In this document: positions 1,520 through 32,321 of the stretch, in pieces | Position numbering within the stretch: the stretch's first letter is position 1 | Layout of the letters: every line of letters starts with the position of its first letter | Source: a virus | Reading direction: 5' to 3' (one strand) | Length of the DNA stretch: 35,987 nt | Virus record (IMG/VR): IMGVR_UViG_3300043436_000801 | Coordinates: 1-35,987 of that record | The notes under the pieces: generated by a model | Database searches by the model: none | What the model was told of the DNA's origin: nothing | The model's input: the letters and a program-made list of their open reading frames with translations, nothing else | Made by a program: the position numbers and the translations under genes

Positions 1520-1594
1520 TTCCTGTTAGCTTAACTGGTAAAGCTCCCGATTTAAACGGGAAGGATGTAGGTTCGACTCCTACACAGGAAACCA
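1520..1594 (+). tRNA. tRNA with UUA anticodon (predicted ochre suppressor)
   Basis: All arms can be drawn. The acceptor stem TTCCTGT/ACAGGAA is 7 bp and perfect, the D stem is GCTT/AAGC with GG in its loop, the T stem GTAGG/CCTAC is perfect with loop TTCGACT, the discriminator is A, and CCA is encoded. The anticodon hairpin CCCG/CGGG holds the 7-base loop ATTTAAA. With the usual T33, the anticodon is TTA at 1552-1554, which reads UAA and by wobble possibly UAG. Two oddities: base 32 is A, and the T before CCCG must either pair in the stem or serve as base 26, so the tRNA is one base short. If the loop were shifted by one base the anticodon would be UAA (Leu), but then the stem does not pair and the long Leu variable arm is missing. 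Confidence 0.85.
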
Positions 1595-2154: not shown

Positions 2155-3158
2155 TAGCGTATCTCCCCATTGTCTATTGTAAGATTCTGAACACTAAAGT
2201 TACCATCTTTTTTCATAGTCACAACAGCAAATCCGTGTACCCATTCATTATACGGCATATAATCAGGAGATAGCTCACACAGACATCCTGTAGAGAATCC
2301 ACCATGATAATGACCATCCATGTTTTTGTCTAGGTAAGTGCTGGATCTGTGGTAATGACCGCAGATTGTATTGACTTTTGATTTACCGTAGATATACTTA
2401 GCAGGGTATACACCTCCAGCACCTTTGTATTCATGACCGTGAATGATGTTTAGATTACCGGCTTTAATTACTGTGTATTTATCTATCAAGATTACATGAT
2501 GCTTAGCAAACTCTAGTAAGATATCTAATCTAAACTCTTCACAGTTAAGGATTTCTGGAGCTTTTACTTGTAGATATCTTTCTAGTCTCATCTCATGGTT
2601 ACCAATCTTGTAGTATATCTGAGCTTTAGGGAATGCTAGTCTAAGTTCTTTTAGGAACCACTTACCTAATTCTAGTTCTTTGAGGAATGTAGGTTTGCTT
2701 GGATTTTTAGAGAAGTCAGACAGTTGGTAGAAATCTAGTATGTCTCCATTAAGAATAACACAATCTACTTGTTGCTCTATACCATATTTAATAGCGGTTC
2801 TAAGTGCTGCAGCATTATGGTAAGGGAAGTGGATATCAGACAGAATGAGAATCTTTTTGGTAGCAGTACCTAGAATATACGGTTCCCGAATTTCTTCAAA
2901 TGATTCGGGGATATCCTCAAAGGGACTATAGTTGTAAGTAATTTCTCTAAGTAATTCTTTAGATTTTATTTTTTTTCTATTGCTTTCTCCTTTAGTCCCT
3001 GTATAGTATCTGAGTCTGTCTCTTGCATGCTCAACATCAGTAAATTCTAATGGGTTTTCGCTGTATATCTTTTTGGCTAATGTGAGAATTGGAGTTTTAG
3101 GGAATCTTTTTAATGCTGCTTTGCATATCTCCCCTACTTGTTTTGGTTTTCCAGCCAT
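2154..3158 (-). CDS. Calcineurin-like metallophosphoesterase
   Basis: The five metal-binding motifs of the calcineurin-like phosphoesterase fold are present in order: SDIH (residues 107-110), NGD (137-139), GNHE (186-189), IIHGH (238-242) and GHYH (267-270). The family hydrolyses phosphomonoesters or phosphodiesters using two metal ions; some phage members act on nucleotides, cyclic nucleotides or DNA. The first 100 residues are a basic helical region with a possible helix-turn-helix, so nucleic-acid binding is possible. Similar phosphatases are known in crAss-like phages. The gene runs against its neighbours, divergent from the gene at 3206 with only 47 bases between. Confidence 0.85.
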   Translation of the reverse strand: MAGKPKQVGEICKAALKRFPKTPILTLAKKIYSENPLEFTDVEHARDRLRYYTGTKGESNRKKIKSKELLREITYNYSPFEDIPESFEEIREPYILGTATKKILILSDIHFPYHNAAALRTAIKYGIEQQVDCVILNGDILDFYQLSDFSKNPSKPTFLKELELGKWFLKELRLAFPKAQIYYKIGNHEMRLERYLQVKAPEILNCEEFRLDILLEFAKHHVILIDKYTVIKAGNLNIIHGHEYKGAGGVYPAKYIYGKSKVNTICGHYHRSSTYLDKNMDGHYHGGFSTGCLCELSPDYMPYNEWVHGFAVVTMKKDGNFSVQNLTIDNGEIR

Positions 3159-3205
3159 CCGTAAGTGTTTATTATCTAAAATAGTATAAATAAGTCAATA
3201 AAACA

Positions 3206-3655
3206 ATGAGAAAAGTGGATGTAAACCTTGATAGAGAGACTATTAAACTGAAAATCAAACAGTTAATGAAAGAGTATGTTGCAGATAATAATCCGTTGTT
3301 AATTGACTTTTTGGTTAATACCATAATGAGTCAATCTAATGGCGTAAAGAATTTGCTATTAGCAGAAGCTAATCAGCTAGATAGAGATTATTATCCTGTT
3401 GGTACTGTAGTACAGATTGAATTTAAAAGAATCGGCGAGTACTATAGCTCGTTAAAAAAAGATCAGATGCTAGAAAACCCTGATAGTTTTGGTTTAAAGG
3501 GTGACTGGATTCAAGGTCTTATTGTAGATGTATATCCTTTCAGCACTAATTATCACTACACAGTGATGTACAAGGGTGTTGATTATAACAAAGCAATTGT
3601 AGAACAGTTAGTTGAGCTTTCAGCTGACGATGTAAAAATTTATGAATATGAGTGA
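3206..3655 (+). CDS. Hypothetical protein (149 aa)
   Basis: No family recognised. The N-terminal third is helical and charged. From about residue 65 there is a beta-rich part (YYPVGTVVQIEFKRIGEYY, then a stretch ending in YPFSTNYHYTVMYKGVDY) that looks like a small barrel and could bind nucleic acid or protein. It is the first gene after the divergent gap and overlaps the next gene by about 8-14 bases. Confidence 0.55.
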   Translation: MRKVDVNLDRETIKLKIKQLMKEYVADNNPLLIDFLVNTIMSQSNGVKNLLLAEANQLDRDYYPVGTVVQIEFKRIGEYYSSLKKDQMLENPDSFGLKGDWIQGLIVDVYPFSTNYHYTVMYKGVDYNKAIVEQLVELSADDVKIYEYE

Positions 3656-3887
3656 GAGAATTCAAGATCAACGTCCAGTTTACATGGGCACATTTAGCAA
3701 GTATGCTAAAAGTTTTGAGAGTCGCATAGCGCTTCTAGAAAATGATATGGAAGATTTAGCTAAGAAAACTAGAATATCTTCTAGAAGAATTGATGACATT
3801 TCTAAGATGACGAGGATATTTTTTGGTACTATGATTAGTATAACTATTGTAGAGTTAGCTATAATAATGCTGAAAATCTTTGCATAA
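3642..3887 (+). CDS. Small protein with coiled coil and C-terminal membrane anchor
   Basis: The start is either the ATG at 3642 or the one at 3648 (MSERIQ); both overlap the upstream gene. Residues 24-55 have heptad-like charged and hydrophobic spacing, suggesting a short coiled coil. Residues about 58-80 form one hydrophobic segment (FFGTMISITIVELAIIMLKIFA) that reaches the C-terminus, so this looks like a tail-anchored inner-membrane protein. Function unknown. Confidence 0.55.
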   Translation: MNMSERIQDQRPVYMGTFSKYAKSFESRIALLENDMEDLAKKTRISSRRIDDISKMTRIFFGTMISITIVELAIIMLKIFA

Positions 3888-14000: not shown

Positions 14001-14109
14001 ATCATGGATGGACGGACTTCACTTACAGACGCTTACTGATGAGTTAAAAAATGACATCATTGAAGCGGTAAGAGATCTAATTGAAGAAATGCAAGAACTA
14101 AATGACTAA
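13963..14109 (+). CDS. Small overlapping protein (48 aa)
   Basis: A 48-codon frame from ATG to TAA that overlaps the primase end by 38 bases and the resolvase start by 8. It encodes a charged helical peptide (MNKEQKKAMERFESWMDGL...AVRDLIEEMQELND). It fills the otherwise empty 100-base gap between primase and resolvase, which supports it as a real gene in such a packed genome. Function unknown. Confidence 0.55.
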   Translation: MNKEQKKAMERFESWMDGLHLQTLTDELKNDIIEAVRDLIEEMQELND

Positions 14110-14626
14110 AGGTTATATAGGTATCGACATTGGAAAGAAAGGTGCTATAGTTTACCAGCATCCTGATGGGAAAATTGAAGCTTATGCTATTCCCATGATT
14201 AAAGATGAGGTTGACTATGCTTTTATGTATGACATTATACAGCACATGAATGCTAGACATTATGAGCTCTATGACTGTCATCCACATATAATTTTTGAGA
14301 AGCTTGGAGTTATCTTCGGTAGCTCTAAAACAACTGCATTCTCTATGGGTCACCAGTCTGGTGCTGTAGAAATGATGGCTATTGCTCTTCGTATTCCTTA
14401 CACAAAGATTCCTGCTAAACAATGGCAGAAAGAAATGTTTACAGGAGTAGAAGAGATTACTATTACCAGAAAGTCTACTAGAGATACTAAAGCAATGGCA
14501 TTGGTAGCTGCTAAAAGATTATTTCCAGGTCAGGATTTTACACTTACAGAGAGAGCTACCAAAGCACACGATGGTATGGTAGACGCTTTATTGATGTCGG
14601 AATATGGAAAAAGAAAAGGTCTCTGA
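14102..14626 (+). CDS. RuvC-like Holliday junction resolvase
   Basis: RNase H-fold nuclease. The catalytic acidic residues are visible: Asp9 in GYIGIDIGKKGA, Glu66 in HIIFEKLG, and Asp157/Asp161 in KAHDGMVDALLMSEYG. The central part (SMGHQSGAVEMMAIALRIPYT) matches the RuvC helix that follows the second motif. Length of 174 is typical. It cuts four-way DNA junctions during recombination or before packaging. It overlaps the small gene upstream by eight bases. Confidence 0.8.
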   Translation: MTKGYIGIDIGKKGAIVYQHPDGKIEAYAIPMIKDEVDYAFMYDIIQHMNARHYELYDCHPHIIFEKLGVIFGSSKTTAFSMGHQSGAVEMMAIALRIPYTKIPAKQWQKEMFTGVEEITITRKSTRDTKAMALVAAKRLFPGQDFTLTERATKAHDGMVDALLMSEYGKRKGL

Positions 14627-15215
14627 GAAAGCTGTACTAGATTATGATGGATATAAAACTGTAAGGGCTATGTTGCTATCTGAAACTAAAGCAGATAGAG
14701 ATATAGGTCTTGGTATACTAGAGAATATAGATGAGAGGAAATGTCTTCCTTTTATTTTATTCATGGCAATAGAGTTTAGTCAAATGGACGAGCACATACC
14801 TAGAACAATCATGTGGTCTATGTATGGTAGATTAAAGTCGCTAAACGCTATTAACAAAATCATTGATGTAAAAACTAAATATTTATCTAATCCTTTTGGG
14901 TATAACACCCCTGACGCAATTATAAAACTTGTAGATGAACGTTCATTAAATAAGTATACTGATCACTCTACCAGACAATATCTGGATAGAATTGTAGAAA
15001 GAATGACTATTACTCAGGTTGTAGATGCGATTCTAATACAAGATGACCCTGAAAGATTCTATCCTTTAGAGAAAGACATTCAGGAGTTCGTGATAAATAA
15101 ACTTGTTAAGAATTGGAGAATCCACGATTATAAATTGCAAATCCCGGGGTTTACTATGAAGTTTAATATCCAAGAAGCAATAGAAATAAGAAGACATGAG
15201 CTTAACAAGAAATGA
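14604..15215 (+). CDS. HEAT-like helical protein of the MoxR/VWA cassette
   Basis: No known family recognised. Residues 15-55 read YKTVRAMLLSETKADRDIG followed by LGILENIDERK, which resembles a stretch in the C-terminal half of the protein at 17560-18684 (LLSSHDPGNIELGLTLMANC). Both look like pairs of antiparallel helices, as in HEAT or ARM repeats. It overlaps the resolvase by 23 bases and the VWA gene by 20. Lying directly before the VWA/AAA pair, it may be an adaptor or substrate-binding part of that system (inference). Confidence 0.55.
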   Translation: MEKEKVSEKAVLDYDGYKTVRAMLLSETKADRDIGLGILENIDERKCLPFILFMAIEFSQMDEHIPRTIMWSMYGRLKSLNAINKIIDVKTKYLSNPFGYNTPDAIIKLVDERSLNKYTDHSTRQYLDRIVERMTITQVVDAILIQDDPERFYPLEKDIQEFVINKLVKNWRIHDYKLQIPGFTMKFNIQEAIEIRRHELNKK

Positions 15216-16374
15216 AAGTCTTTCTAAAGTATGTAAAGAACTTATGTTGAAAGAGCCCTACTACGGGCTTTTTCTAGTTATGACTGAGAAACAATGGACT
15301 GATAAGATTGAGACAGCTGGTGTTGCTAAACACAACATCAACTACAAACTTCTTATTAATCCGGAGTTTTGGGATAGTCTTAGTCTAAACCACAGAATCG
15401 GTTTGACTAAACACGAGATGCTGCATCTAGCATTCTTCCATCCACTGATGAAAGATAGCTTTGATGATCACCAACTCTTCAATATTGCTGCAGATCTAGA
15501 GATTAATCAGTATATAGAGGATGAGTTTCTACCGGATGGCGGTCTAAAACTAGACTCTTTTCCTGACATAGTTTTTCCTGAGAGAGCAGGTACTAGAGCT
15601 TATTATGATATTCTAAAGAAGAATCAGAATAATCCTACTCTGCAGAATCTTAAAAGTGCTATGGGTCAAGGGTTACCTCAATCCGAGGATGGACTTAACA
15701 ACCCTAATCACGACTGGAAAGAGTTTGAAGATATGGGTGAAGCTGAGAAACGTCTGATGAAAACTCAAATGGAGTATCAGATGAAAGAGCTAGCTCATGA
15801 GGTAACTAAATCTAGGGGTATAGTTCCTGGAGAGATTAGAGAACTGATTGATAACTTTACTGCTTTTGAACAACCAAAGTTTGACTGGCGTGGTTACATC
15901 AGAAGATTTGTAGGTAGGTCTGTAAAGGTTTATACCAAGAAACTAAGAAGGAAGTTTAATAAGAGATTTGAGGATAATCCCGGTCTTAAGATTAAGCAGA
16001 AGAAACATATCTTAGTTGCTGTAGATACATCAGGTTCTGTAAGCACAGATGAACTTAAGGAGTTTTTCTCAGAGGTTCATCATATGCATAAGACAGGTTC
16101 TGATATTACCGTAGTGCAGTGTGATACTGCTATTAGTGACATCCGTCCTTATAAACAGAGTAACAAGATTGAGTTACACGGTAGAGGCGGTACTTCCTTT
16201 GATCCCGTTGTAGAGTATTATGACGCTAATCAGAAGAAGTATACATGTCTTATTTATTTCACAGATGGAGAAGCGCCTGCTCCCGCTAAACCAAAGGGGC
16301 ACATCTTGTGGGTACTAAGTTCCCGTTCAGAGATTAATAATAAATTACCAGGTCAAATTATCAAATTAAACTAA
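15196..16374 (+). CDS. Putative metallopeptidase with VWA-like domain (DUF2201 type)
   Basis: Two domains. The N-terminal domain has HEMLH (residues 73-77) with His82 and NIAADLEIN (96-104), the zinc-binding pattern of the DUF2201 N-terminal zincin-like domain. The C-terminal domain (about 270-392) is VWA-like with all three MIDAS pieces: DTSGS (277-281), RGGTSFDPV (330-338) and TDGEAP (356-361). Between them is a very basic stretch. Such proteins pair with MoxR ATPases, which is the next gene here, two bases away. The pair probably remodels or inserts cofactors into a target protein; the target is unknown. The gene start carries a terminator-like hairpin. Confidence 0.8.
   Translation: MSLTRNESLSKVCKELMLKEPYYGLFLVMTEKQWTDKIETAGVAKHNINYKLLINPEFWDSLSLNHRIGLTKHEMLHLAFFHPLMKDSFDDHQLFNIAADLEINQYIEDEFLPDGGLKLDSFPDIVFPERAGTRAYYDILKKNQNNPTLQNLKSAMGQGLPQSEDGLNNPNHDWKEFEDMGEAEKRLMKTQMEYQMKELAHEVTKSRGIVPGEIRELIDNFTAFEQPKFDWRGYIRRFVGRSVKVYTKKLRRKFNKRFEDNPGLKIKQKKHILVAVDTSGSVSTDELKEFFSEVHHMHKTGSDITVVQCDTAISDIRPYKQSNKIELHGRGGTSFDPVVEYYDANQKKYTCLIYFTDGEAPAPAKPKGHILWVLSSRSEINNKLPGQIIKLN
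15250..15273 (+). other. Terminator-like hairpin inside the VWA gene start
   Basis: AAAGAGCCC (15250-15258) pairs with GGGCTTTTT (15265-15273) over a six-base loop, nine pairs including one G-T, with the right arm ending in five T. It lies 55 bases into the coding region, so premature termination (attenuation) is possible. Confidence 0.55.
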
Positions 16375-16375
16375 G

Positions 16376-17557
16376 ATGGCAAACATTAAGCAAGTAGTAT
16401 TGAACACTACAGAATTGAAAGACTTTGTAAAACACATTGTAGGAAACAACCGTTATCTCCAAGAGAACGGTAAGAATCCTGTTGCTATAAATATCGAAGG
16501 TGAAGCGGGTCTAGGTAAGACCAGTGCTATTTTGCAAGTTGCAGATGAGTTGAATCTCCAGTGTATTAAGCTGAATTTGAGTCAGTTAGAGGAGATAGGT
16601 GACCTTGTAGGTTTTCCAATGAAAGAGCATGAGATGGTAAAAGGTGACCTTGTTAAATGGGTTACCGAGTCTACTATGCCTATGTATATAACTGGTGGTT
16701 ACAAACCTACCGGTGAGAAGAGAATGACACATGCTGCTCCTGAATGGGTTCAAGGTAAAGGTCAAGGTGGTATCCTTATTCTGGATGACTGGACTCGTGC
16801 TGACCTCAGATTCGTTCAAGCGGTGATGGAGATTATTGACAGACAAGAGTACATCTCATGGAAATTACCAAAAGACTGGCACGTTATCTTGACTTCTAAT
16901 CCTGATAATGGTGAGTATTTGGTTAACTCTATTGACACAGCTCAGAGAACTCGTTTTATCACAGCACATCTGAAGTTTGACATTGATTGTTGGGCAAAGT
17001 GGGCAGAACAGAATAGCGTTGACTCTCGTTGTATCAACTTCCTGTTGATGCATCCTGAGTTGGTTAAGGGTGATATTAATCCTCGTAGTATTACTACATT
17101 CTTTAACTCTATCAGTTCCATCAAAGTGTTCGAGGAGCAGTTACCACTTATTCAGATGATTGGTGAGGGTAGTGTAGGTACTGAGTTTAGTACTCTGTTT
17201 ACCACCTTTATCAATAACAAGCTGGATGCTATGGTATCTCCTAAGGAAATCCTTACCGGTGGTGACTGGGATGCTATTGAGAGTAAACTTAAGGCTTCCA
17301 TGTATGACGGTTCTCATTACAGAGCTGACATTGCTAGTCTGATGGCAACTCGTATTAGTAACTATAGTGTAGTATATGCAGAATCAAATCCTGTCACTGA
17401 TAAAATCATGGACAGAATTAAAGAGATCATCAAAGCTGAGGAACTCTTTGCTCTTGACTTACACTATTTCATGATCAAGAACATTATCTCTGGTAACAAA
17501 ACAAAGTTCCAGAAGATGTTACTTGACAAAGACATTGTTAAACTCGCAGTAAAATAA
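16376..17557 (+). CDS. MoxR-type AAA+ ATPase
   Basis: Walker A is GEAGLGKT (residues 42-49), Walker B is LILDD (134-138), sensor 1 is TSN (173-175), and the Arg-finger region is QRTRF (190-194), all spaced as in MoxR-family AAA+ proteins. After residue 210 there is a long helical lid and a C-terminal region. MoxR proteins act as chaperones with a VWA partner, which is the gene immediately upstream. Length 393 is slightly longer than most. The gene is followed after two bases by the next cassette member. Confidence 0.85.
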   Translation: MANIKQVVLNTTELKDFVKHIVGNNRYLQENGKNPVAINIEGEAGLGKTSAILQVADELNLQCIKLNLSQLEEIGDLVGFPMKEHEMVKGDLVKWVTESTMPMYITGGYKPTGEKRMTHAAPEWVQGKGQGGILILDDWTRADLRFVQAVMEIIDRQEYISWKLPKDWHVILTSNPDNGEYLVNSIDTAQRTRFITAHLKFDIDCWAKWAEQNSVDSRCINFLLMHPELVKGDINPRSITTFFNSISSIKVFEEQLPLIQMIGEGSVGTEFSTLFTTFINNKLDAMVSPKEILTGGDWDAIESKLKASMYDGSHYRADIASLMATRISNYSVVYAESNPVTDKIMDRIKEIIKAEELFALDLHYFMIKNIISGNKTKFQKMLLDKDIVKLAVK

Positions 17558-17559
17558 TT

Positions 17560-18684
17560 ATGGAAATAGAATTTAAAAAATACATGCACTGTGACTTTCT
17601 TCAAAATGAAGCGGTGCTTAATACCCCAGAAAAGGATTCTTGGGCGTATGTATATTTTGGTAAAATGGATGAGCGTTCAATACAGCACAAAATCTTTAGC
17701 GATGTTGGTATAAAGATGACTAGCTCTGAAATTGAACCATCTACTCTTGGTAAAATATTCTTTACTAAGTCTGCAAATGTTCCTAGATATAAAGTCCGGG
17801 AAGTAAAAGATAAGTACAACTTAGCTGTTGTTAGAGATTCTAGCAAAGCTGATACTATTGTTATTTCTAAAAATGAAATACAAGAGAATGTTCAGCATAG
17901 CTGGGGTGCATATCTATACCACAGAAATACTGTAAAAGAAGTATTGGAGGCGCTATATGCGTCTCCAGCTTTTGTTTCTAATGGTAGACTTAGATACAAT
18001 GCTTATCATAGTGAAATGCTTAATAACAAAGAGTTGGTAAAAAATGCTCTTGATAAACTAAATGATCTTCCTGCAGATGTAGAGTATATCTCTTTTACTT
18101 ATGGATGTCGTGATAAGTTTGATGTTGTAGCAAATACATTAAGTCATAGTGTTGAGCATAAAGCTAATGTCAAAATTATAGAACCATCGGTTTATGATGG
18201 TATGCTACAGTATAAGGGCAAGAATGTTATTACAGATTCTGCTTTACAGTCTATTCTAGGTTCTTCAGAAATGGAACATGAGAACTATGTTTTCATTGAC
18301 CAGTTGCTGAGTAGTCATGATCCCGGTAATATTGAACTAGGTCTTACTCTAATGGCTAATTGTAATTTTGAAGAGAGTCAACATTATTTGCTAATATTGC
18401 TTGGTGATCATTACAACAAACACAGACATGTAAAGTATTGTCATAGTGTAGCATTTAAGAGTCTGATTGATTTTATGGACTTTAATAGATACTCTAGTGT
18501 AACTATAGATCGTATACTTGAGAAAGCTGATTCTATAGGTAAACTAACAAATGACATTATCAAACTTGTAGAGGCTAGAGTTACTGAGGACATTCAACGT
18601 TCTATTAGAAATTACAGGTGGGTTAAGATAACAGGAATCAAAATAGAGAAACCGCAGAATGATACAAACGAAGGAAGGGATTAA
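17560..18684 (+). CDS. Hypothetical protein of the MoxR/VWA cassette, HEAT-like C-terminus
   Basis: No family recognised. Residues 1-230 are alpha/beta with many Tyr and Lys. Residues 245-345 are helical and contain the stretch LLSSHDPGNIELGLTLMANC, similar to the 14604-15215 protein. The two similar proteins flank the VWA and MoxR genes. That layout suggests that they bind the same partner or the ATPase ring. It overlaps the following nuclease gene by 26 bases. Confidence 0.55.
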   Translation: MEIEFKKYMHCDFLQNEAVLNTPEKDSWAYVYFGKMDERSIQHKIFSDVGIKMTSSEIEPSTLGKIFFTKSANVPRYKVREVKDKYNLAVVRDSSKADTIVISKNEIQENVQHSWGAYLYHRNTVKEVLEALYASPAFVSNGRLRYNAYHSEMLNNKELVKNALDKLNDLPADVEYISFTYGCRDKFDVVANTLSHSVEHKANVKIIEPSVYDGMLQYKGKNVITDSALQSILGSSEMEHENYVFIDQLLSSHDPGNIELGLTLMANCNFEESQHYLLILLGDHYNKHRHVKYCHSVAFKSLIDFMDFNRYSSVTIDRILEKADSIGKLTNDIIKLVEARVTEDIQRSIRNYRWVKITGIKIEKPQNDTNEGRD

Positions 18685-19666
18685 TGTTCTTGCTTTGGAA
18701 GAGGAGTTCTATTCAAAACCATTTAACTTCAGTTATAGTGGTATGAATAGGCTCCTCTATTCTCCAAAGCTTTTTTATTCGCATTATGTACTACAGCAAA
18801 GGGAAGAGAAGCTAGACAGCTATCTTATTGAGGGTAAAGTAATTCACTGTCTATTATTAGATGGTGATAACTTTGACAAACAATTTGTAGTGTCACCGTT
18901 ATCTTTGCCCAGTGACAACCCTAAACTTGTTGTAGATAGAGTATTTAAATACGCTCAAGAGACTAACTCTCTGGACCAAGATCTGAGATCGTTTGAGTCA
19001 CCGATCTTAGACATACTAAAAGAGATTAATCTCCACCAGTCTCTCAAGACTGATGAGCAGAGGGTTGACAAGATGGTTACAGATCAGACTGTAAGCTACT
19101 TTGACTTTCTAAAGCAGAAAGGCAGTAAAGATGTTATAGACACAGAGATGTACAATCGGTGTCTAGAATCAGTCCAGATTCTGAGACAGAATCAGGAAGT
19201 TGTTGAAGTACTTGATTTATATAGGAACTCTGGTGGCACTGTTTATAGTGAGCACCCGATTCAAATCAATCTACCTGGTTATCCATTTGGATTAAAGGGG
19301 ATAATTGACAACCTAGTTGTTAATGAAAATGATAAGACTATAGTAATCAATGACTTAAAGACAACAGGTAAAACAGTTGCAGAGTTTGCTGAGACTGTTG
19401 AGTACTACAATTACTGGCTTCAAGCAGCTATTTACAGGAAATTAGTATTAGGGGCATTTGCTGTAGATGCTACTTGGAAAGTAAAGTTCAACTTTATTGT
19501 CATTGACAAGTACAAACAAACGTATGTATTTCCAGTGTCTGATGAAACAATGAACAAATGGTACCTGACTGGTCTCAGCAATGCTCTTGCAAAAGCAAAG
19601 TATCATTATGAGAAGAGAGAGTTCTCTTTACCATATGATATGGTTGTAACTAAAGTCGTACTGTAA
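18659..19666 (+). CDS. RecB-like PD-(D/E)XK exonuclease
   Basis: A nuclease of the PD-(D/E)XK family as found in phage RecB/exonuclease VIII-type proteins. Visible are the helical motif EGKVIHCLL (58-66), Asp217 in GIIDNLVV, the core NDLKTT (231-236) with Asp232 and Lys234, and the QxxxY motif YWLQAAIYR (252-260). It digests DNA ends, probably to make single strands for annealing by the Sak4/SSB pair. The start lies inside the previous gene. The first 120 bases carry a long palindrome with a T tract. Confidence 0.8.
   Translation: MIQTKEGINVLALEEEFYSKPFNFSYSGMNRLLYSPKLFYSHYVLQQREEKLDSYLIEGKVIHCLLLDGDNFDKQFVVSPLSLPSDNPKLVVDRVFKYAQETNSLDQDLRSFESPILDILKEINLHQSLKTDEQRVDKMVTDQTVSYFDFLKQKGSKDVIDTEMYNRCLESVQILRQNQEVVEVLDLYRNSGGTVYSEHPIQINLPGYPFGLKGIIDNLVVNENDKTIVINDLKTTGKTVAEFAETVEYYNYWLQAAIYRKLVLGAFAVDATWKVKFNFIVIDKYKQTYVFPVSDETMNKWYLTGLSNALAKAKYHYEKREFSLPYDMVVTKVVL
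18692..18776 (+). other. Long interrupted palindrome with T tract inside the nuclease gene
   Basis: Three stem blocks pair perfectly: GCTTTGG (18692-18698) with CCAAAGC (18764-18770), AGAGGAG (18700-18706) with CTCCTCT (18752-18758), and CTATTC (18709-18714) with GAATAG (18745-18750). That gives 20 pairs around a 30-base loop that can fold further, followed by six T (18771-18776). It lies within the first codons of the nuclease. It could end or pause transcription, or be a protein-binding site. Confidence 0.6.
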
Positions 19667-24091: not shown

Positions 24092-24232
24092 TTATCCTTG
24101 TCCTCTATAAGGTTTCTTATAGTTCTTACTAGACTTTAGACCGCTTGTTTTAGTCTTAGCGATTACACCTGGTCTTTTCTTTTTACCACCTTTGGGTGCA
24201 AAGGCGTTTTTTGCGGTTACTGTTTTAGCCAT
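24092..24232 (-). CDS. Small very basic protein (46 aa)
   Basis: A 46-codon frame whose ATG overlaps the stop of the giant gene upstream as TAATG, so it is the last gene of the minus-strand operon. About one third of its residues are Lys or Arg (FAPKGGKKKRPGVIAKTKTS, then a second KNYKK patch). Such tiny basic proteins bind nucleic acid or neutralise packaged DNA. It may be a virion or RNA polymerase accessory protein, by position. The stop is just outside the terminator hairpin. Confidence 0.7.
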   Translation of the reverse strand: MAKTVTAKNAFAPKGGKKKRPGVIAKTKTSGLKSSKNYKKPYRGQG

Positions 24233-27200
24233 TATCTATTTCGTTTATCAAGGGTTTCGATTGATTGTATAGGTTCTATTGTAGTACCTGTTAATGATAG
24301 GAGTTTTCCGAAATGGTTCCAGAATTTATATCTTCCTTCTTCTTGCCATTCGTATGGACCTGAGGTTCTTTTATATACATCTCCACTAGCCATACCTACA
24401 AAACTATCTATAAGTTCTTCCCATCTTCCAAATGTTGCTGATAAAGCTGCAGAGTTCATAAGTGCAATATCCTTGTAGTCCTTAAGACCCATACCAGGTA
24501 AGGGTACCCAAGAATCGTTTTCTGCTTCTATCTGTAGGGACAGGTTCAACAAGTGGTTTGACAACCATCCGTTGAGTCTAAAGTCTCTACCTGGGTTATC
24601 TGTAACAAATGGTAACGGTAGTGCATCACTCTTTTCTCTGAGCTTAGCAAATCTATCCTCATCGTCATCATCATAACCAAACAGTAATCCCAAAATAACT
24701 GTATTGAATAGAAGCAAAAGACCACCCTCCATCATTACTTTAGATGCAGCTTCTCTTTCTGTATCCGAAAGATTATAGAAGTTCATCTTATACGTAGTAA
24801 AGAATCTCTTCGCCGCTCTTAAAAACTCTACATAGTAACCCATACTTACGCTATCTGTATAACCATCGTATCTAGGTACAATCATACTATGCTCAGGGCT
24901 CCATCTGTACTTAAATCTTTCCATGAAGAGTTCCATGAAGTACTTCTTCAAGTGCATGATCATTCTGTACAGAAGATATCTAGACGCTAGTGGTTGGTTA
25001 AATGAGTCATAAGCACCGTTTGCTTTATTTACAACACCGTGTAGTCTCTTTACAAATGCTACATAGTTCTTGCCACCAGGAGCATAGCTTTCATCAACAC
25101 CAGCTTTTAGTTTTAGTCTACCGTCTACTACTTCCCAAGCTTCACTGTATTTGATTTTACCTTTAGTGCCAGTCTTAGGATCAGTATAATCTAGCATCTT
25201 CTTGTTGAGCATAGCTCCAAAGATTGCTAAGTTTGATTGCAACTGTGTCCATTCACGGACGCTTGTAGCAAACTTGAAACTAATCACATCTCTTGCTGCA
25301 GACTTAGATATACCTTTTCCTTCTCTAATGCCTTCAGCTAATCTACCTTGTGTGGGATCCATCATCTCCACAAGCATATAGTTAAGAGACTTGTTTCCAA
25401 ACTTATAAACCTCCATAGTAATCTCAGAGGTTACTTTAGCTGACCATGCATTACCTATTGCAAAGTCTTTAGTATTAAAGTTATCACCTGCAGCAGATTG
25501 AATCAACGCTTGCCATTGTGCACCCATAGAGTTTTTAAGTGCAGACGGTATATTAAATGCAAAGAATGTTGTAGACGATATAGATAACAGAGCATCTGCA
25601 AACTTCTGTACACCAGGAGTATTACCAAAGAAACCATCTAAGCTTTTACCCTCAAACTCTCTTTCTATAAATCCTCGTATAGCAATTTCTCTAAAGTTAG
25701 AACCTTTACTACCAAATGGTACAGTAAGCGATGCAGCTACCCTATTTACAAATCTTTGCTTTTTTACTTTATTTACTGCAGACTCCTTCAGTTCATTAGG
25801 CGGCGTCTGTATCAAAGAATGAAGAACCTTAGCCATAGGTAACATGTCAATCAGAGTCTTTTGTTTTATAAGTGACTGCTGATATCTAGATATACTTGTA
25901 AGCATATCCATTGTAACCATACTAGGATCTAACTCATACATACCAGTAACAGGAACTTTTACATAAGCATCGTCAAAAAGATCAGCTTTTATGTAGTTTT
26001 CTCTGTCTGTAGGATTAAAACCCATTTCAAAGTCATCCGCGCTTTTTCCAAAAAACTGTCCGAGGTTTCTCCAAAATCTTGAAATAGGATTCTGATTCAG
26101 ATTCTCTTGAGTACTTCTATTAGATACAACCTCGTACTGACTAGCGCGATATCTTTCATACTCAAGGTCTAGTCTGCTATCATACGGAACAGTTTCTTGA
26201 ATACTCAAGTGCTGTTTCAATAAACCCATCAACAGATTATACTTATCTGGTGAGTTTTTCCGCATGTCAAAGAACTGCATGTTAATGAACTTGCTATCCT
26301 GTACATCCATACGTGGTAACCAGTCACCGTGCATATCTATAGTAGCATTCTCAATACCGATACCTTGCTTAATACAGTCTAGCATAGTTAAAGCTTTTGT
26401 TTTAAGCTTTACTATGTTTCCTTCATCATCAACAAACTCATCTTTTACAATCTTAGTCCAGTATTCCAAAGAGGGAACACCCTGGATTGTACGAATCTCA
26501 TCTCCGGTAATCGGATCATATAGAGTTGTTGTTTCATAGTAGCTAGGATCTTTCGGAGCTACTCTTGACCATACGCGAGATGGTGTATACTTTACGAATA
26601 TCTTACCACCTTTTCCGGGATACTCTCTTTTAAAGTGATTCTTTTCTAACCAGTCTGAGAAAGTTATAATTACATCATCACCCTTAGAATCTTTATAAAC
26701 TATTGCCGGATTGATAGAAAGTATCTTAGCTAGTATAGTCTCATTAAAGAATAGTTTATAGTCAGATAGGTTAACACCCTCAGCAGGTATACCCTCAGAC
26801 TCAAGATAATCTTTTAGACTAGGATTAGCTTCAAAGAACATGTTCAACATGTCTATATAATCCTGTGTAGGAACTCTTTCCTGCAGGTCCATCAACTTTC
26901 TGAGCACGTTTCTTTTCTTAGATTCGTTCTCATTAAGTTTAACAGCTTCCAGTTTAATCTGAGCTGACTCAGAAGAATCTGGATAGCGCTTGTTATCTCT
27001 TATAAACTTCTCTCTTAATTTTTCTACATACGGAGATGTCAACGTATCTGTTGCCCACTCCATAAATGACAACATACTATCAATCTCTTCCTGTGTTTTG
27101 TCTTTATATACTTCTGTGTCTCCTGCTATATATTTTTTATAATCAGGAAGATTTGAAAGATAATTAGAATATACATCTGCAGGCATTGCTTTAGACACCG

Positions 27201-30200
27201 ATGAGGGAACATTGTCTCTCATGTCCATTAGCTTTTTCTCCAGTTCTATAACTCTATTTACAACGTGATCAGGCATTGTTAATGCTTCCGGTTCACCATT
27301 GTCATCTTTATATGGAGCTATAAGTCTGGTAATTTCAGCAAAGATGTCTGATACTTCCTTCTGATTAGGATCTTCTTCAGCAAGTCTTTGGAGTTCTAAG
27401 AACAACTTAGCTCTCTCTTCATAAAACTTCTTAGATAGTTTCTGTACAGTGTTTAGTGCTAACCACTTTTCCTGTTCTATTTCTATCTGATCTGGTGTAA
27501 GACCTTTAGCTTTAAGACTATTTGTATAGTTGATATAGGCATTTTCAAATACTCCTTTCAGAGGTACCCAGTCGTAAAACTTCTTTGTGTAGTTTTTATA
27601 TTCCTGAAGTCTTTCAGCAACTTTGTAATCCATAGACTCTGGGTCTTTTGGAGTACCGTCTTCGTAGAAGAGATCAGACAACTGTTTGTATTCTCTCCAA
27701 GCAAGCTTAGCGTCCTCTGTGTTTTTAATTACATCATCCGGACTTTGGATACCGGACTTAAGAGATCTCAGTTTACTTAAAACTCTGTCTCTTCTTTTCT
27801 CAGCTTCTCTACCAATTTCATCGGTAAAGAACTTAGACTTTTCATAAAAAGTAGATGTATATTTTCTATGCATGTAAGCTTTTTCAAAATTCTCTAAAGC
27901 TTCCATTGCTAGAACAAGTTCTATGTTGTTCTCATCTGTATTATTCTGGTCTACTTTTTTACGAGCGGCTTCTACTGCTTTCTTAAGAGTTCTATACTCA
28001 CCCTTGTAATCTTTGAAAGGAGTTATATATTTCCAAACCGTCTTAGTAGGAACACCTGCGTCATCTCTTTCTACCACATCCAGATAAAGCATGTCTTTAC
28101 CCATATTCATTCTACTATACGCAGAGGTATATCCCGCTTTATTTACTAGCGGTTCAATGTCATTGATAAAACCGTAGTAAGCATCATGCATTATTGCATT
28201 CATTTCTACAAAACGGTTACGTACATATCCAGAGAAACCCATAATAACAGGGTCCTGTGCATGTGCAAATCCTTCTAGGAATACATTCAGAGAGTGCGCA
28301 TCACCTAATTCACCCATCAGGTAGCTTTTGATCTTTTCATCATCAAGTTTTACCGCATCATACTCCTCTTCGTAAAGTTTAATAACTTCAGGACTAGCGC
28401 CTTTATCTCTAAGTTTCTGAATCACCATTTCATAGTGATCGTCGATATTCTTTTTCATGGGTGTAAGCTGCTCAATAAGCATTGCTGATACACCCTTAGT
28501 ATAAATTCTCTTACTCTTAGCAGTTGCTCTGTCTAAAGTCTCTTTGATATCATTCAGTATTCTGAATATCTCGTGACTAGGTTTAACATTTGCTTCTCTA
28601 AGTTCATTCTTAGCTGTTTCTATAAAATTTATCCACTCTTTGGTTACACGGTTTGTGTAAAACGCAGACAACAACGCTTTTTGTTGTTCCTGTGGAGTAG
28701 ATGAGTCATTTTCAATTACAGCAACTATAGCATTAAAATTCTGTAGAACTCTTTCAGCAGCACCCTCCAATCTAAGAATACTATTCAGCAGCGCAATAGC
28801 GTGCAGATTTAAGAATTCTTCTTGTTGTTCTGGGGTTTCTCCTGGTATAATACCGTTATTTTGGTAGTCTCTAAGGTTTCCGATTATCTCAGCAATGTCA
28901 GATCTACCCATCAAGTCTTTTGTTACTGTGGATATATCTTTATAATTAATACCGGAGATAAGATTCTTTTGTTTCTTAGCCATTGCGTAGAGAGCAGTAC
29001 CAATAAGTCTGGTTCTCTTCTGATCTATACTTGCTATTTGTTTTACGAGATCCTTGCTAAAGTCTCTGGTAAAAGAAACAACATCTTTTTGGGTTATGAC
29101 CTCAGTGTTGATTTTAAACTTGTTGTTTACAAGCATCTCCGCTAGCTGGTCTAGTGTAGTATTAACATCTAGATTTTCAACCTTTATTCTTTCACCGGGA
29201 AATAATCCTTTTCTAAAAAGTTGTTTTATAGCATACAGGAAATCCTTGATAAACTTAGTAAAGACGTTACTTTCTTGCAGATTGTTGTTTATGTTATCTG
29301 CTTTCTTACCCAAAGAAGTAACCATAGCTTCCTCCATAAACTCTGGACTCCCAAACGTAAGTTCCTTATGAGTCATCTTTACTCTTTCTATAATAGCTTC
29401 GCCCTCAGGAGTTAATGTAAGCTGATTATATAAGGATTTAAATAACTCAGGATTTGTTTGAGCAATGGCTCTGATTATACCGTGAGCAAACTCGTGGAAA
29501 ACAACTTCTGTGTTAGCTCTTTCTGCTACTATGTACGCTTTACCATTAAAGAAAAATCCAGGTTCGCCGTTATAAGACTTACCTGCACTGCTCAACATTG
29601 CTAGTGCATCCGTCATAGCTATAACGTTAGCATCAACACCAACAGATATTTTTAATCTGTCAACTAGTTTACTTACAATTTCATTACCTCTAGCTAGTCT
29701 TTGAGAACTGTCATCAAGTAAATCAGAGTACTTCTCAAAGAAGTCACTCATTGTTTCTACTGGCATATCTCTAAAGAACATAGGGTCTGTCCCTCCCTCA
29801 TAAGGAACAATTTCTCCGTCTACTATTCTGTAGTTACCTTCTCTTTGATTCTTTTCAAATGCTTCTCTATCTTTTCTAGCTTGCTGAATTCTTTTAAGCT
29901 GTTCTTCTTCTCTCTTGGTAATATTGTTTATTTTAGATATCTGCGCTGAACTAGGTCTAGCATAAACACCAATCTTATTATCGTAGTACGAGCTAGTATA
30001 GAACACAGTACCGATAGTGGGATCACCATTATTGATATCCTTATTAAGTCTATCAGCTAAACCTTTAGCTACACCTCTTAGATTACCTGCTGCTGCACTA
30101 ATCTTTTTACCGGGACTAGCCACAACTTGTATAAACATTTCTCCATAAGGACCAGGACCATCGTATCTAAAATACGATTTGCCTGCTACTCTTTTTGTTA

Positions 30201-30240
30201 TAGCATTGTGTATTCCTACTACGCAAGTACTGTCGCTCAT
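24232..30240 (-). CDS. Giant virion-associated protein with zincin metalloprotease motif (about 2000 aa)
   Basis: Probably one of the large proteins that crAss-like phages package and eject with DNA; the call rests on size, position and the neighbouring RNA polymerase protein. Residues 246-256 contain VVFHEFAHGII, a zinc HExxH site (HEFAH at 249-253, nt 29482-29496), with a Glu-Glu pair about 50 residues later (EEAMV) as a candidate third ligand. The middle is long, charged and coiled-coil-like. A hydrophobic segment (GGLLLLFNTVILGLLFGY), followed by Asp/Glu, lies about 160 residues before the end. The ATG at 30240 is preferred; a GTG at 30258 is possible. Confidence 0.75.
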   Translation of the reverse strand: MSDSTCVVGIHNAITKRVAGKSYFRYDGPGPYGEMFIQVVASPGKKISAAAGNLRGVAKGLADRLNKDINNGDPTIGTVFYTSSYYDNKIGVYARPSSAQISKINNITKREEEQLKRIQQARKDREAFEKNQREGNYRIVDGEIVPYEGGTDPMFFRDMPVETMSDFFEKYSDLLDDSSQRLARGNEIVSKLVDRLKISVGVDANVIAMTDALAMLSSAGKSYNGEPGFFFNGKAYIVAERANTEVVFHEFAHGIIRAIAQTNPELFKSLYNQLTLTPEGEAIIERVKMTHKELTFGSPEFMEEAMVTSLGKKADNINNNLQESNVFTKFIKDFLYAIKQLFRKGLFPGERIKVENLDVNTTLDQLAEMLVNNKFKINTEVITQKDVVSFTRDFSKDLVKQIASIDQKRTRLIGTALYAMAKKQKNLISGINYKDISTVTKDLMGRSDIAEIIGNLRDYQNNGIIPGETPEQQEEFLNLHAIALLNSILRLEGAAERVLQNFNAIVAVIENDSSTPQEQQKALLSAFYTNRVTKEWINFIETAKNELREANVKPSHEIFRILNDIKETLDRATAKSKRIYTKGVSAMLIEQLTPMKKNIDDHYEMVIQKLRDKGASPEVIKLYEEEYDAVKLDDEKIKSYLMGELGDAHSLNVFLEGFAHAQDPVIMGFSGYVRNRFVEMNAIMHDAYYGFINDIEPLVNKAGYTSAYSRMNMGKDMLYLDVVERDDAGVPTKTVWKYITPFKDYKGEYRTLKKAVEAARKKVDQNNTDENNIELVLAMEALENFEKAYMHRKYTSTFYEKSKFFTDEIGREAEKRRDRVLSKLRSLKSGIQSPDDVIKNTEDAKLAWREYKQLSDLFYEDGTPKDPESMDYKVAERLQEYKNYTKKFYDWVPLKGVFENAYINYTNSLKAKGLTPDQIEIEQEKWLALNTVQKLSKKFYEERAKLFLELQRLAEEDPNQKEVSDIFAEITRLIAPYKDDNGEPEALTMPDHVVNRVIELEKKLMDMRDNVPSSVSKAMPADVYSNYLSNLPDYKKYIAGDTEVYKDKTQEEIDSMLSFMEWATDTLTSPYVEKLREKFIRDNKRYPDSSESAQIKLEAVKLNENESKKRNVLRKLMDLQERVPTQDYIDMLNMFFEANPSLKDYLESEGIPAEGVNLSDYKLFFNETILAKILSINPAIVYKDSKGDDVIITFSDWLEKNHFKREYPGKGGKIFVKYTPSRVWSRVAPKDPSYYETTTLYDPITGDEIRTIQGVPSLEYWTKIVKDEFVDDEGNIVKLKTKALTMLDCIKQGIGIENATIDMHGDWLPRMDVQDSKFINMQFFDMRKNSPDKYNLLMGLLKQHLSIQETVPYDSRLDLEYERYRASQYEVVSNRSTQENLNQNPISRFWRNLGQFFGKSADDFEMGFNPTDRENYIKADLFDDAYVKVPVTGMYELDPSMVTMDMLTSISRYQQSLIKQKTLIDMLPMAKVLHSLIQTPPNELKESAVNKVKKQRFVNRVAASLTVPFGSKGSNFREIAIRGFIEREFEGKSLDGFFGNTPGVQKFADALLSISSTTFFAFNIPSALKNSMGAQWQALIQSAAGDNFNTKDFAIGNAWSAKVTSEITMEVYKFGNKSLNYMLVEMMDPTQGRLAEGIREGKGISKSAARDVISFKFATSVREWTQLQSNLAIFGAMLNKKMLDYTDPKTGTKGKIKYSEAWEVVDGRLKLKAGVDESYAPGGKNYVAFVKRLHGVVNKANGAYDSFNQPLASRYLLYRMIMHLKKYFMELFMERFKYRWSPEHSMIVPRYDGYTDSVSMGYYVEFLRAAKRFFTTYKMNFYNLSDTEREAASKVMMEGGLLLLFNTVILGLLFGYDDDDEDRFAKLREKSDALPLPFVTDNPGRDFRLNGWLSNHLLNLSLQIEAENDSWVPLPGMGLKDYKDIALMNSAALSATFGRWEELIDSFVGMASGDVYKRTSGPYEWQEEGRYKFWNHFGKLLSLTGTTIEPIQSIETLDKRNR
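26383..26416 (-). other. Intragenic hairpin in the giant gene
   Basis: CATAG (26383-26387) pairs with CTATG (26412-26416), and TAAAGCTT (26389-26396) pairs with AAGCTTTA (26404-26411), with one bulged T and a seven-base loop. The role is unknown; it may be chance. Confidence 0.4.
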
Positions 30241-30251
30241 ATCTAATTTTT

Positions 30252-32321
30252 TTAGCACCTAAAATCATCAGTAGTGATCTCAGGATCGTTTTTGAATTCT
30301 GAATCTAATGAAACCATATTTACAGTCTCTGCTGTATCAGACCGCACTGGGTAGAAAGATACAACATACTGAGTATCACTCCAACCCGTTAAGTCTAATC
30401 CACCATAACCTTTAGCTTTAAGGAATCTAAAAAACTCTTTTTGAATCTCTAATCCCTCGGGACTATTGTCTAGGATATCAAATGTCTTTCCTGTATTTTC
30501 TGTAAACTTTTTTGTTTCGTCTCTGTATAGATCACGATTGGAAAATGCTTTCAGAAAACCAGCTGTATCTAATGATACTTTTCTTACAACCGACCCGTAG
30601 TCCTGAGCTTCTTTTTCATCTAGAGTAAAGTAATTAAACTCTCTATTGTCTAGTGACCCTGTATAACCCTGGTATACGGTTAAAGTATCATCTTCTTCCG
30701 TAAAAGGAATGTTATCTTCAGAAGTCGCAAACTTGTCTCTAGAAAATGTAAAGTATCTAAAACCTTTATTTGTAAATTTATACTTGTCTTTAACGAAAGG
30801 TTGAAAGAATATAAGATCATTAAGATCTTTTCCTCTACCCATATTAATTTTAGCTTCGAATATCTGTTTCCAATCTTTCCAGTAGTTGTCAAATATCTCC
30901 GGATAACTTCCTTCATTAGTTCTTAAAAAGAAATCGATTATGTACTTCTTAGGTACTTCTAATCCACTTTCGGGATCTATTTCTTTTTCTGTAGGGTGTT
31001 CTATATATCCGGTAATTGTTACACTTTCACCGGCAGCAGTATGATCTCTACCTATAAAAGCTTTCTGCAAAGTCCATGATGGAAACATGTCTTTTACATT
31101 TTTATACCAAGCTTGATCTTCTAAAAAAGGTTGAACTTCTTTAAAAAACTTGTCCTGCTGTTTAGAAGCTGTTAAACTCAAACCCCTGTCTCGTATCCAC
31201 TCGTAAAAAGCTTTACTGTTTTTTTCTTTTCTAAAAGTTTCTAAGGTAATTACACCATCTATATCATGCAAATTTTCATTTATTGCCCTTAATAGTATTC
31301 CGTATTTTCTAACTACCTGAGATCCTGAGAGTTTAAAGTCTACAAAAGGATTTTCAAAAAGTTTTGTGAGTATAGTTTTTACAAAAGGATCTGCATTTAT
31401 AGTTTTTTCGTAGTCTTTTTTCTCAAATACTTCGTTCTTGTTGTTTCTTACAACCCCATCTGGATCTCTACGATACTCCCTAATCCATTTACTATAGTCT
31501 TGCTTATAGACGTCATCAACAATATCTAAAACAAGTGACTTTAGATTTTCTTCGGTAAGCTCTCTAATAGGTTTAACACCATATACATTTTCCTTTATCC
31601 AGTTGATTATCTTATTAATTATGCTAATAAAAACATTTTTGTCATATACGTCTTTAAATCCCAGGGATTCAAAATATGCTTTACTGATATCAGTGTTGAT
31701 CTGTTTTTCTCCGATGTAATCGTTATCTATACCGTACTCTAGCATATCTGCTATAAAATGAATTATAGCTTGCTTGTGTGCAAATGGTTTAAACTTATTT
31801 AAACCTTCACCGTAATCATAGAACGGTAAATCTTCTAAAGAAACATCATCACTTGCATATTTACTTTTCTTATACTTATCGTATATCTCCTGATACTTTG
31901 GCCACTTATTAATGTTTTTCCATAGTTCTATAGATAGCTTGCTTTTCTTTCCCAGGAAAGAATATATAATGTAAGCAGACTGAAGTGTCAGATCTCTCTG
32001 AGTTATATTAGAAGAAAGTGCTAAATACTTTTGCAGCATATCAAAAGCAGACACAGCGTCTGTCTTAATCATCTCATCAGCATTTTCTTCAATCTCTATA
32101 TTCAGACCTTTTATAAACGTAAACAGTTTAGATTTGAGTTTATCATCAAAGTCTTCGGGTTTGTAAGATGGAAAAAATTCTGGTTTACTATCCATGATTT
32201 CACTTAAAGAACGGAGTCTACCGTTCTCCATATAATCACGGGTAGTTTCAAAAAGACCTATTTTGTCAACAAGCTTTTTCCACTCAGGTGTATCTGTAAC
32301 ATCATCAGATATACAACTCAT
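30252..32321 (-). CDS. Large virion-associated protein with candidate nucleotidyltransferase and ADP-ribosyltransferase-like domains
   Basis: No full-length family is recognised. Residues 331-465 fit a nucleotidyltransferase fold: LSGSQVVRKYG (Gly333-Ser334), HDIDGVI with Asp353 and Asp355, and YIIDFF with a third Asp463. Residues 547-660 look like an ADP-ribosyltransferase fold as in phage polyvalent proteins: LTVYQGYTG, FTLDEKEAQDYG, then GYGGLDL and TQYVVSFYP. The N-terminal 300 residues are helical. The start overlaps the upstream stop as TAATG, linking it to the RNA-polymerase-like gene. Both domain calls are pattern-based. Confidence 0.65.
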   Translation of the reverse strand: MSCISDDVTDTPEWKKLVDKIGLFETTRDYMENGRLRSLSEIMDSKPEFFPSYKPEDFDDKLKSKLFTFIKGLNIEIEENADEMIKTDAVSAFDMLQKYLALSSNITQRDLTLQSAYIIYSFLGKKSKLSIELWKNINKWPKYQEIYDKYKKSKYASDDVSLEDLPFYDYGEGLNKFKPFAHKQAIIHFIADMLEYGIDNDYIGEKQINTDISKAYFESLGFKDVYDKNVFISIINKIINWIKENVYGVKPIRELTEENLKSLVLDIVDDVYKQDYSKWIREYRRDPDGVVRNNKNEVFEKKDYEKTINADPFVKTILTKLFENPFVDFKLSGSQVVRKYGILLRAINENLHDIDGVITLETFRKEKNSKAFYEWIRDRGLSLTASKQQDKFFKEVQPFLEDQAWYKNVKDMFPSWTLQKAFIGRDHTAAGESVTITGYIEHPTEKEIDPESGLEVPKKYIIDFFLRTNEGSYPEIFDNYWKDWKQIFEAKINMGRGKDLNDLIFFQPFVKDKYKFTNKGFRYFTFSRDKFATSEDNIPFTEEDDTLTVYQGYTGSLDNREFNYFTLDEKEAQDYGSVVRKVSLDTAGFLKAFSNRDLYRDETKKFTENTGKTFDILDNSPEGLEIQKEFFRFLKAKGYGGLDLTGWSDTQYVVSFYPVRSDTAETVNMVSLDSEFKNDPEITTDDFRC

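Follow-up and report, generated by a model that had tools for sequence, protein, structure and literature searches.

Pairs of a MoxR-type AAA+ ATPase and a VWA protein are spread through many phage groups. In group 2.2 jumbo phages, a MoxR ATPase encoded with a metallopeptidase-VWA protein has been proposed to act as a chaperone/co-chaperone pair (Iyer et al. 2021, PMC7824862), and genes 24 and 25 of phage N4 are core genes of the N4-like phages, expressed as middle transcripts (PMC4193335). In NorQD, the VWA protein sits in the pore of the ATPase ring, and its metal ion-dependent adhesion site (MIDAS) likely binds the target and not the ring (PMC13036017, PMC9976466). MoxR-vWA ternary conflict systems, found mainly in multicellular bacteria, join a defining third component to the pair (Kaur et al. 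2020, PMC7159879). The locus considered here is a four-gene cassette in a viral DNA of 35,987 nucleotides (IMG/VR record IMGVR_UViG_3300043436_000801, hereafter the window), where a MoxR ATPase and a VWA protein with a zincin metallopeptidase domain are enclosed by two proteins denoted P1 and P4. The first-pass annotation of the window held that the four genes look like a complete machine, of a kind that it did not know as described. The pair of MoxR and metallopeptidase-VWA protein is already known in phages (PMC7824862), but the literature searched yielded no description of the P4 family, of its BRCT-like domain, of P1 as a free form of its C-terminal domain, or of the obligate link between P4 and a MoxR clade with the Walker B motif LDD.

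P4 is the obligatory partner of this LDD-type MoxR clade. Viral contigs were searched with MoxR as bait, because the P4 alignment has no conserved stretch and failed for searching collections; this yielded 140 loci, of which 88 had a VWA gene and enough flanking sequence. The loci were chosen by MoxR similarity and include near-duplicates. P4 stands alongside the MoxR/VWA pair in all 88, and P1-like proteins are found in 52, making P1 optional. The order P1-VWA-MoxR-P4 is seen in 36 loci and, with tandem P4, in 12 more, and VWA-MoxR-P4 in 20, plus three with a split MoxR. P4 moves to the other side of the pair in 12 loci (P4-VWA-MoxR), and the remaining orders are P4-VWA-P1(-P1)-MoxR (four loci) and MoxR-P4-VWA (one). 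The VWA gene is adjacent to or near MoxR throughout, its presence having been a condition of the count. The idea of a complete four-gene machine is thus supported for P4 but not for P1, and the minimal unit is smaller than the set of four genes.

The association of P4 with the pair is tighter than that of the surrounding genes. Where 4 kb were available on both sides, P4 was retained in 55 of 55 loci, the primase in 42, the nuclease in 42, and the resolvase in 6; P4 therefore outlasts the genes around it. Across 12 records of 86-124 kb, no P4 was found away from MoxR. Two P4 copies each are present on L095 and L096, two metagenome-assembled genome contigs whose MoxR is 51% identical. A third, more distant contig (L097, MoxR 42% identical) was considered as a clade member lacking P4 and rejected as such, since a P4 of 339 residues directly following MoxR is open at full length when TGA is read as tryptophan. 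At 2647-3666 of this contig, which binning assigned to Christensenella, P4 and the gene that follows it are full length only with that reading, suggesting a recoded gut phage.

Outside the clade, the pair occurs without P4. No recognisable P4 lies beside it in the N4-like, AR9, cyanophage, jumbo, Thermus, and Staphylococcus phages, or on the Clostridium and Campylobacterota chromosomes read. Among 344 open reading frames (ORFs) near the MoxR-VWA genes of N4-like, AR9, S-TIM, jumbo, and Thermus phages and of Clostridium, none was a convincing P4 relative, the best hhalign result (E 0.0014) being a short match to the helix pair in an opposite-strand ORF. A tblastn search of P4 against isolate phages gave no match. 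Chromosomal pairs of MoxR and a DUF2201 VWA protein occur in many Clostridium species (L098-L130, with others), and near several of them an opposite-strand ORF of 108-130 residues weakly matches the helix pair.

The two central proteins are what the first-pass annotation had named them, as Pfam, PHROG, and conserved motifs agree. In the zincin-VWA protein, both DUF2201_N and DUF2201 exceed the Pfam gathering score; among 48 unique relatives, the zincin motif HExxHxxxxH is present in every one and the MIDAS start DTSGS in 47. A PHROG label of HNH endonuclease for this protein was rejected, as Pfam shows the DUF2201 metallopeptidase and VWA domains. The same label for DUF2201 zincin-VWA proteins is widespread, in PHROG 1314 and in deposited phage records. 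The ATPase has tblastn matches to annotated MoxR-like phage ATPases, and its Walker A motif, sensor 1 Asn, and a downstream Arg are conserved throughout the clade. Walker B reads LDD in all clade members and DE in every other phage or bacterial relative examined, so that the Asp-Glu typical of MoxR-type AAA+ proteins is absent here. Judged by similarity, the clade is AAA+ and MoxR-like but variant, and LDD marks a sub-lineage. The ATPase would be expected to assemble as a hexameric ring with ATPase activity.

Inserts split the MoxR or VWA genes at four loci (L028, L032, L033, L157). Group I introns (Rfam RF00028) and genes for GIY-YIG/NUMOD1 homing endonucleases lie within those of L028, L032, and L033. 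The breaks fall within or next to active-site codons: in MoxR at codon 46/47 in L028 and L033 (Walker A spans 42-49) and near codons 136-144 (Walker B, 134-138), and in the VWA gene at codon 75/76 (HExxH, 73-77) and codon 101.

P1 and P4 were described in the first-pass annotation as two related helical proteins. The window sequences compared alone are too marginal to decide (BLASTP E 0.055, 15% identity). When family profiles are aligned by hhalign, P1 matches P4 at E 5.4e-9, the short P1-like proteins of other phages match P4 at E 1.1e-9, and P1 matches these short proteins at E 1.4e-6. In control alignments, the best E was 0.045 for 28 unrelated families encoded nearby in these loci and 0.08 for 30 column shuffles. 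A lack of significant profile similarity, named beforehand as what would speak against the relationship, was thus not observed. On these profiles, the two families are homologous, with similarity limited to the C-terminal domain of P4, and P1 is a stand-alone version of that domain. The adjective helical fares less well, for the N-terminal half of P4 is predicted to be alpha/beta. The core motif common to both is roughly LxxMLxSxDxxNxxLAxxIMxN. The helix-pair motif LxxMLxSxDxxN also occurs in otherwise unrelated proteins of 135-148 residues elsewhere in these genomes (L191 835-1242, L192 994-1401, L193 953-1399) and is, therefore, not diagnostic of the cassette by itself.

The AlphaFold model of P4 (predicted local distance difference test score, pLDDT, 87) has an alpha/beta, BRCT-like N-terminal part of ~235 residues followed by a helical domain. 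Because the helical domain filled the Foldseek and VIA-align results of the whole model, the N-terminal part was modelled separately for these comparisons. A sequence profile of this part (42 sequences) has the BRCT domain of PARP1 as its top match in the PDB (E 0.0022-0.0024), and Foldseek gives the PARP1 BRCT a probability of 0.77-0.80. The 50 VIA-align rows consist almost entirely of BRCT domains (Z 4.1-5.9 over 75-81 residues), among them those of Dbf4, Sir4, PARP1, MCPH1, BRCA1, Rad4, REV1, XRCC1, RFC1, and TopBP1. The aligned range covers residues 59-236 of P4, which implies that strands 3 and 4 of the putative BRCT domain are separated by an insertion of ~110 residues. Helix 1 begins with a conserved basic patch, PRxKLK.

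Several results weigh against a BRCT assignment. The Pfam BRCT family PF00533 stays below its gathering score (best E 0.0029), with sub-threshold matches in four members of the family and two further proteins. The top Foldseek match by E-value, the H-BRCT domain of Sir4, reaches only a moderate 0.035, and a VIA-align Z of at most 5.9 is likewise moderate. The Ser/Thr that follows strand 1 in phosphopeptide-binding BRCT domains is not conserved, being found in 32% of 114 sequences. With Z no higher than 5.9, Foldseek E above 0.03, and Pfam below the cut-off, the N-terminal domain could instead have an unrelated alpha/beta fold, which would be compatible with any other account of the cassette. 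This is doubtful, as three partly independent signals fall on the same residues, namely the PARP1 profile match, the sub-threshold Pfam matches, and the BRCT-dominated VIA-align list. It is the agreement of these individually moderate profile, Pfam, Foldseek, and VIA-align signals that makes the N-terminal half appear to be a BRCT domain with a large insertion.

The C-terminal half of P4 and P1 look ARM/HEAT-like. The C-terminal domain aligns with ARM/HEAT proteins at VIA-align Z up to 6.8 over ~75 residues, a length too short for a repeat array, and the P1-family profile matches 4rv1 (E 1.1e-5) and 4hxt, which are designed proteins of the same type. A match of the shared-segment profile to 6xwx (E 0.043) was weak and not used. 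Structure matches of P4 in BFVD include a CrAss-like virus. The BRCT fold is best known from eukaryotic DNA repair; outside DNA ligases, BRCT domains appear to be little described in phages, with no such paper in the literature searched, where nothing relevant on BRCT with MoxR or crAss-like phages was found either.

The four proteins differ in how fast they change. Mean pairwise identity is 63% for MoxR, 55% for VWA, 28% for P1, and 21% for P4, and the ratio of nonsynonymous to synonymous substitutions (dN/dS) is 0.04, 0.05-0.11, ~0.2, and 0.25-0.42, respectively. All four are constrained, with P1 and P4 changing much faster than MoxR and VWA. Divergent P1 and P4 beside conserved ring parts are as expected if P1 and P4 bind targets.

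The reading preferred here, which has about an even chance of being right, is that of a MoxR-VWA remodelling machine with P4 as a dedicated BRCT-ARM adaptor, acting on DNA replication and recombination complexes. The MoxR ATPase would form the ring, with the zincin-VWA protein as the co-chaperone; by analogy with NorQD, the MIDAS metal site of the latter would touch the target. The BRCT-like domain of P4 may recognise a partner, either protein or DNA, within the replication or recombination complexes of the phage, with the ARM/HEAT-like domain docking P4 on the ATPase complex. P1, as a free copy of the docking domain, would be an optional second adaptor or a competitor. ATP hydrolysis would then pull apart or reposition the recruited complex, and the zincin may cut it. 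Replication and recombination complexes are favored as the target because the cassette lies in a replication block and P4 has a BRCT-like domain. The first-pass annotation had already spoken of a machine with its own adaptors; the extra component is there at all 88 loci, and its part may be that of an adaptor.

Some points pull the other way. Fusions of P4 or P1 with MoxR or VWA were looked for and none found, the replication setting is possibly mere synteny, given that other clade members have other neighbours, and P4 could be a client rather than an adaptor. More tentative than the machine as such is its extension to a distinct MoxR-VWA branch that these phages would have evolved, with an altered Walker B residue and with an obligatory BRCT-ARM subunit that steers the machine to the DNA of the phage or to its replication/recombination apparatus. 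Such a BRCT-guided AAA+ machine would remodel the replisome or DNA ends, and the free ARM subunit P1 would tune target choice.

The main rival to a role in DNA transactions, itself rather unlikely, is a machine for virion assembly or maturation that remodels and trims structural proteins, with P4 and P1 as assembly adaptors. BRCT domains are typical of DNA transactions, and in the window and at many related loci the cassette lies among replication and recombination genes and not among structural genes, both of which argue against such a role. An intact zincin motif fits processing, and virion assembly is what was proposed for the same domain pair in group 2.2 jumbo phages, citing an archaeal virus precedent (PMC7824862). 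The N4 data cut both ways, as structural genes lie near the gene 24/25 counterparts in phage RPP1, while the middle rather than late transcription of the N4 genes leans away from a purely late role (PMC4193335).

It is also possible, if unlikely, that P4 (and P1) are clients, so that MoxR-VWA matures the BRCT-ARM protein or places it on DNA or in another complex. Dedicated clients are known for several MoxR systems, and having just one would explain both the obligate linkage and the conserved ring; the tandem P4 copies of 12 loci could then be alternative clients. However, the much faster evolution of P4 than of the ring suits an adaptor with variable targets no less well, and P1, as a free-standing copy of the C-terminal domain, is more readily pictured as a docking part. 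A counter-defence or host takeover device, in which the BRCT-ARM protein marks host factors for disassembly or cleavage, would fit the fast divergence and variable copy number of P4 and P1 but is very unlikely, given that P1, VWA, and P4 have no match in PADLOC and that the MoxR matches there, to the BrxF P-loop, are weak (best E 0.0025), that a dN/dS of 0.2-0.4 denotes purifying selection, and that the universal presence of P4 in the clade suggests a core rather than an accessory function.

The ORF coordinates of the window (Table 1) confirm that the four genes, at 14604-18684, overlap or nearly touch, and PHROG and Pfam matches place them between a resolvase and a nuclease as first described. 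The overlaps are 23 nt (resolvase/P1), 20 nt (P1/VWA), and 26 nt (P4/nuclease), and the gaps are 1 nt (VWA/MoxR) and 2 nt (MoxR/P4). The resolvase is probably not part of the machine. Beyond the resolvase and nuclease lie a DnaB-like helicase, a second helicase, a Sak4-like recombinase, a Toprim primase, and a PolA-type polymerase, and it is these flanking genes that locate the cassette in a replication/recombination block. In many loci (for example L007 4060-4401, L018 3525-3866, L026 3009-3350), the P1-like gene is immediately preceded by an ORF of constant length, 113 residues, which is a candidate additional member of the cassette.

Table 1. Cassette genes, motifs, and adjacent genes in the window.
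Feature	Position	Strand	Basis or remark
Holliday junction resolvase	14102..14626	+	PHROG 1770 E 1.1e-20
P1	14604..15215	+	203-residue helical protein; ORF
P1 segment shared with P4 (~residues 12-65)	14637..14798	+	ARM/HEAT-like helix pair; hhalign
Zincin-VWA putative co-chaperone (DUF2201_N + DUF2201)	15196..16374	+	Pfam PF13203, PF09967
MoxR-type AAA+ ATPase	16376..17557	+	PHROG 1297 ATPase E 2.8e-36
MoxR Walker A GEAGLGKT	16499..16522	+	Motif
MoxR Walker B LILDD	16775..16789	+	Asp replaces catalytic Glu of other MoxR proteins
P4	17560..18684	+	BRCT-like + ARM/HEAT-like protein
P4 BRCT-like domain, residues 59-236	17734..18267	+	VIA-align, sequence profile, Foldseek
P4 ARM/HEAT-like helical domain, residues 238-350	18271..18609	+	VIA-align; hhalign to P1
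PD-(D/E)XK exonuclease VIII-like nuclease	18659..19666	+	PHROG 412 E 2.2e-23; Pfam PF12705

Elsewhere in the window, a tRNA with the anticodon UUA (1520-1594, plus strand; ARAGORN, Rfam tRNA 57.9 bits) is a possible UAA (ochre) suppressor, despite which TAA is the commonest stop, ending 23 of the 37 main ORFs. The minus strand at 24232-35987 holds three huge ORFs of 2008, 689, and at least 1221 residues without a PHROG match; the last has the sequence SGSDFDIDK, reminiscent of the DxDxD motif of the crAss-like RNA polymerase.

Compared with the described systems, the cassette shares its core and differs in its partners. The ternary conflict systems likewise add a third component, which there is VMAP, iSTAND, FtsH, or a beta-propeller system and here is a phage protein that looks BRCT-ARM; Pfam and NCBIfam scans of P1 and P4 gave no match to any of these four, with no VMAP profile run. 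Like NorQ/NorD and RavA/ViaA, the cassette combines a ring-type ATPase with a MIDAS-bearing VWA partner that would contact the target, whereas NorQD as described has no zincin fusion and no BRCT or ARM partner, and its client role is metal insertion. Genes 24 and 25 of the N4-like phages (Schitoviridae) also encode an ATPase and a vWFA/DUF2201 protein, and in the N4-like phage phCDa the pair lies next to a helicase and a DNA polymerase. Their ATPase is distant (~24-30% identity over about half its length), Walker B of phCDa is DE, and P4 is absent. Closest in architecture is the pair of group 2.2 jumbo phages, where MoxR also stands beside a VWA protein whose N-terminal domain is a metallopeptidase. 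The clade of the window differs from it in the Walker B Asp, the BRCT-ARM-like protein P4, and the stand-alone P1, and the large-phage loci read showed no P4 relative close to the pair; the window cassette, moreover, is in a replication block and not in a virion block. Where the pair is always accompanied by a BRCT-like protein, as in this lineage, there is a concrete lead to a target, and the virion-assembly proposal can be tested directly against a role in DNA transactions.

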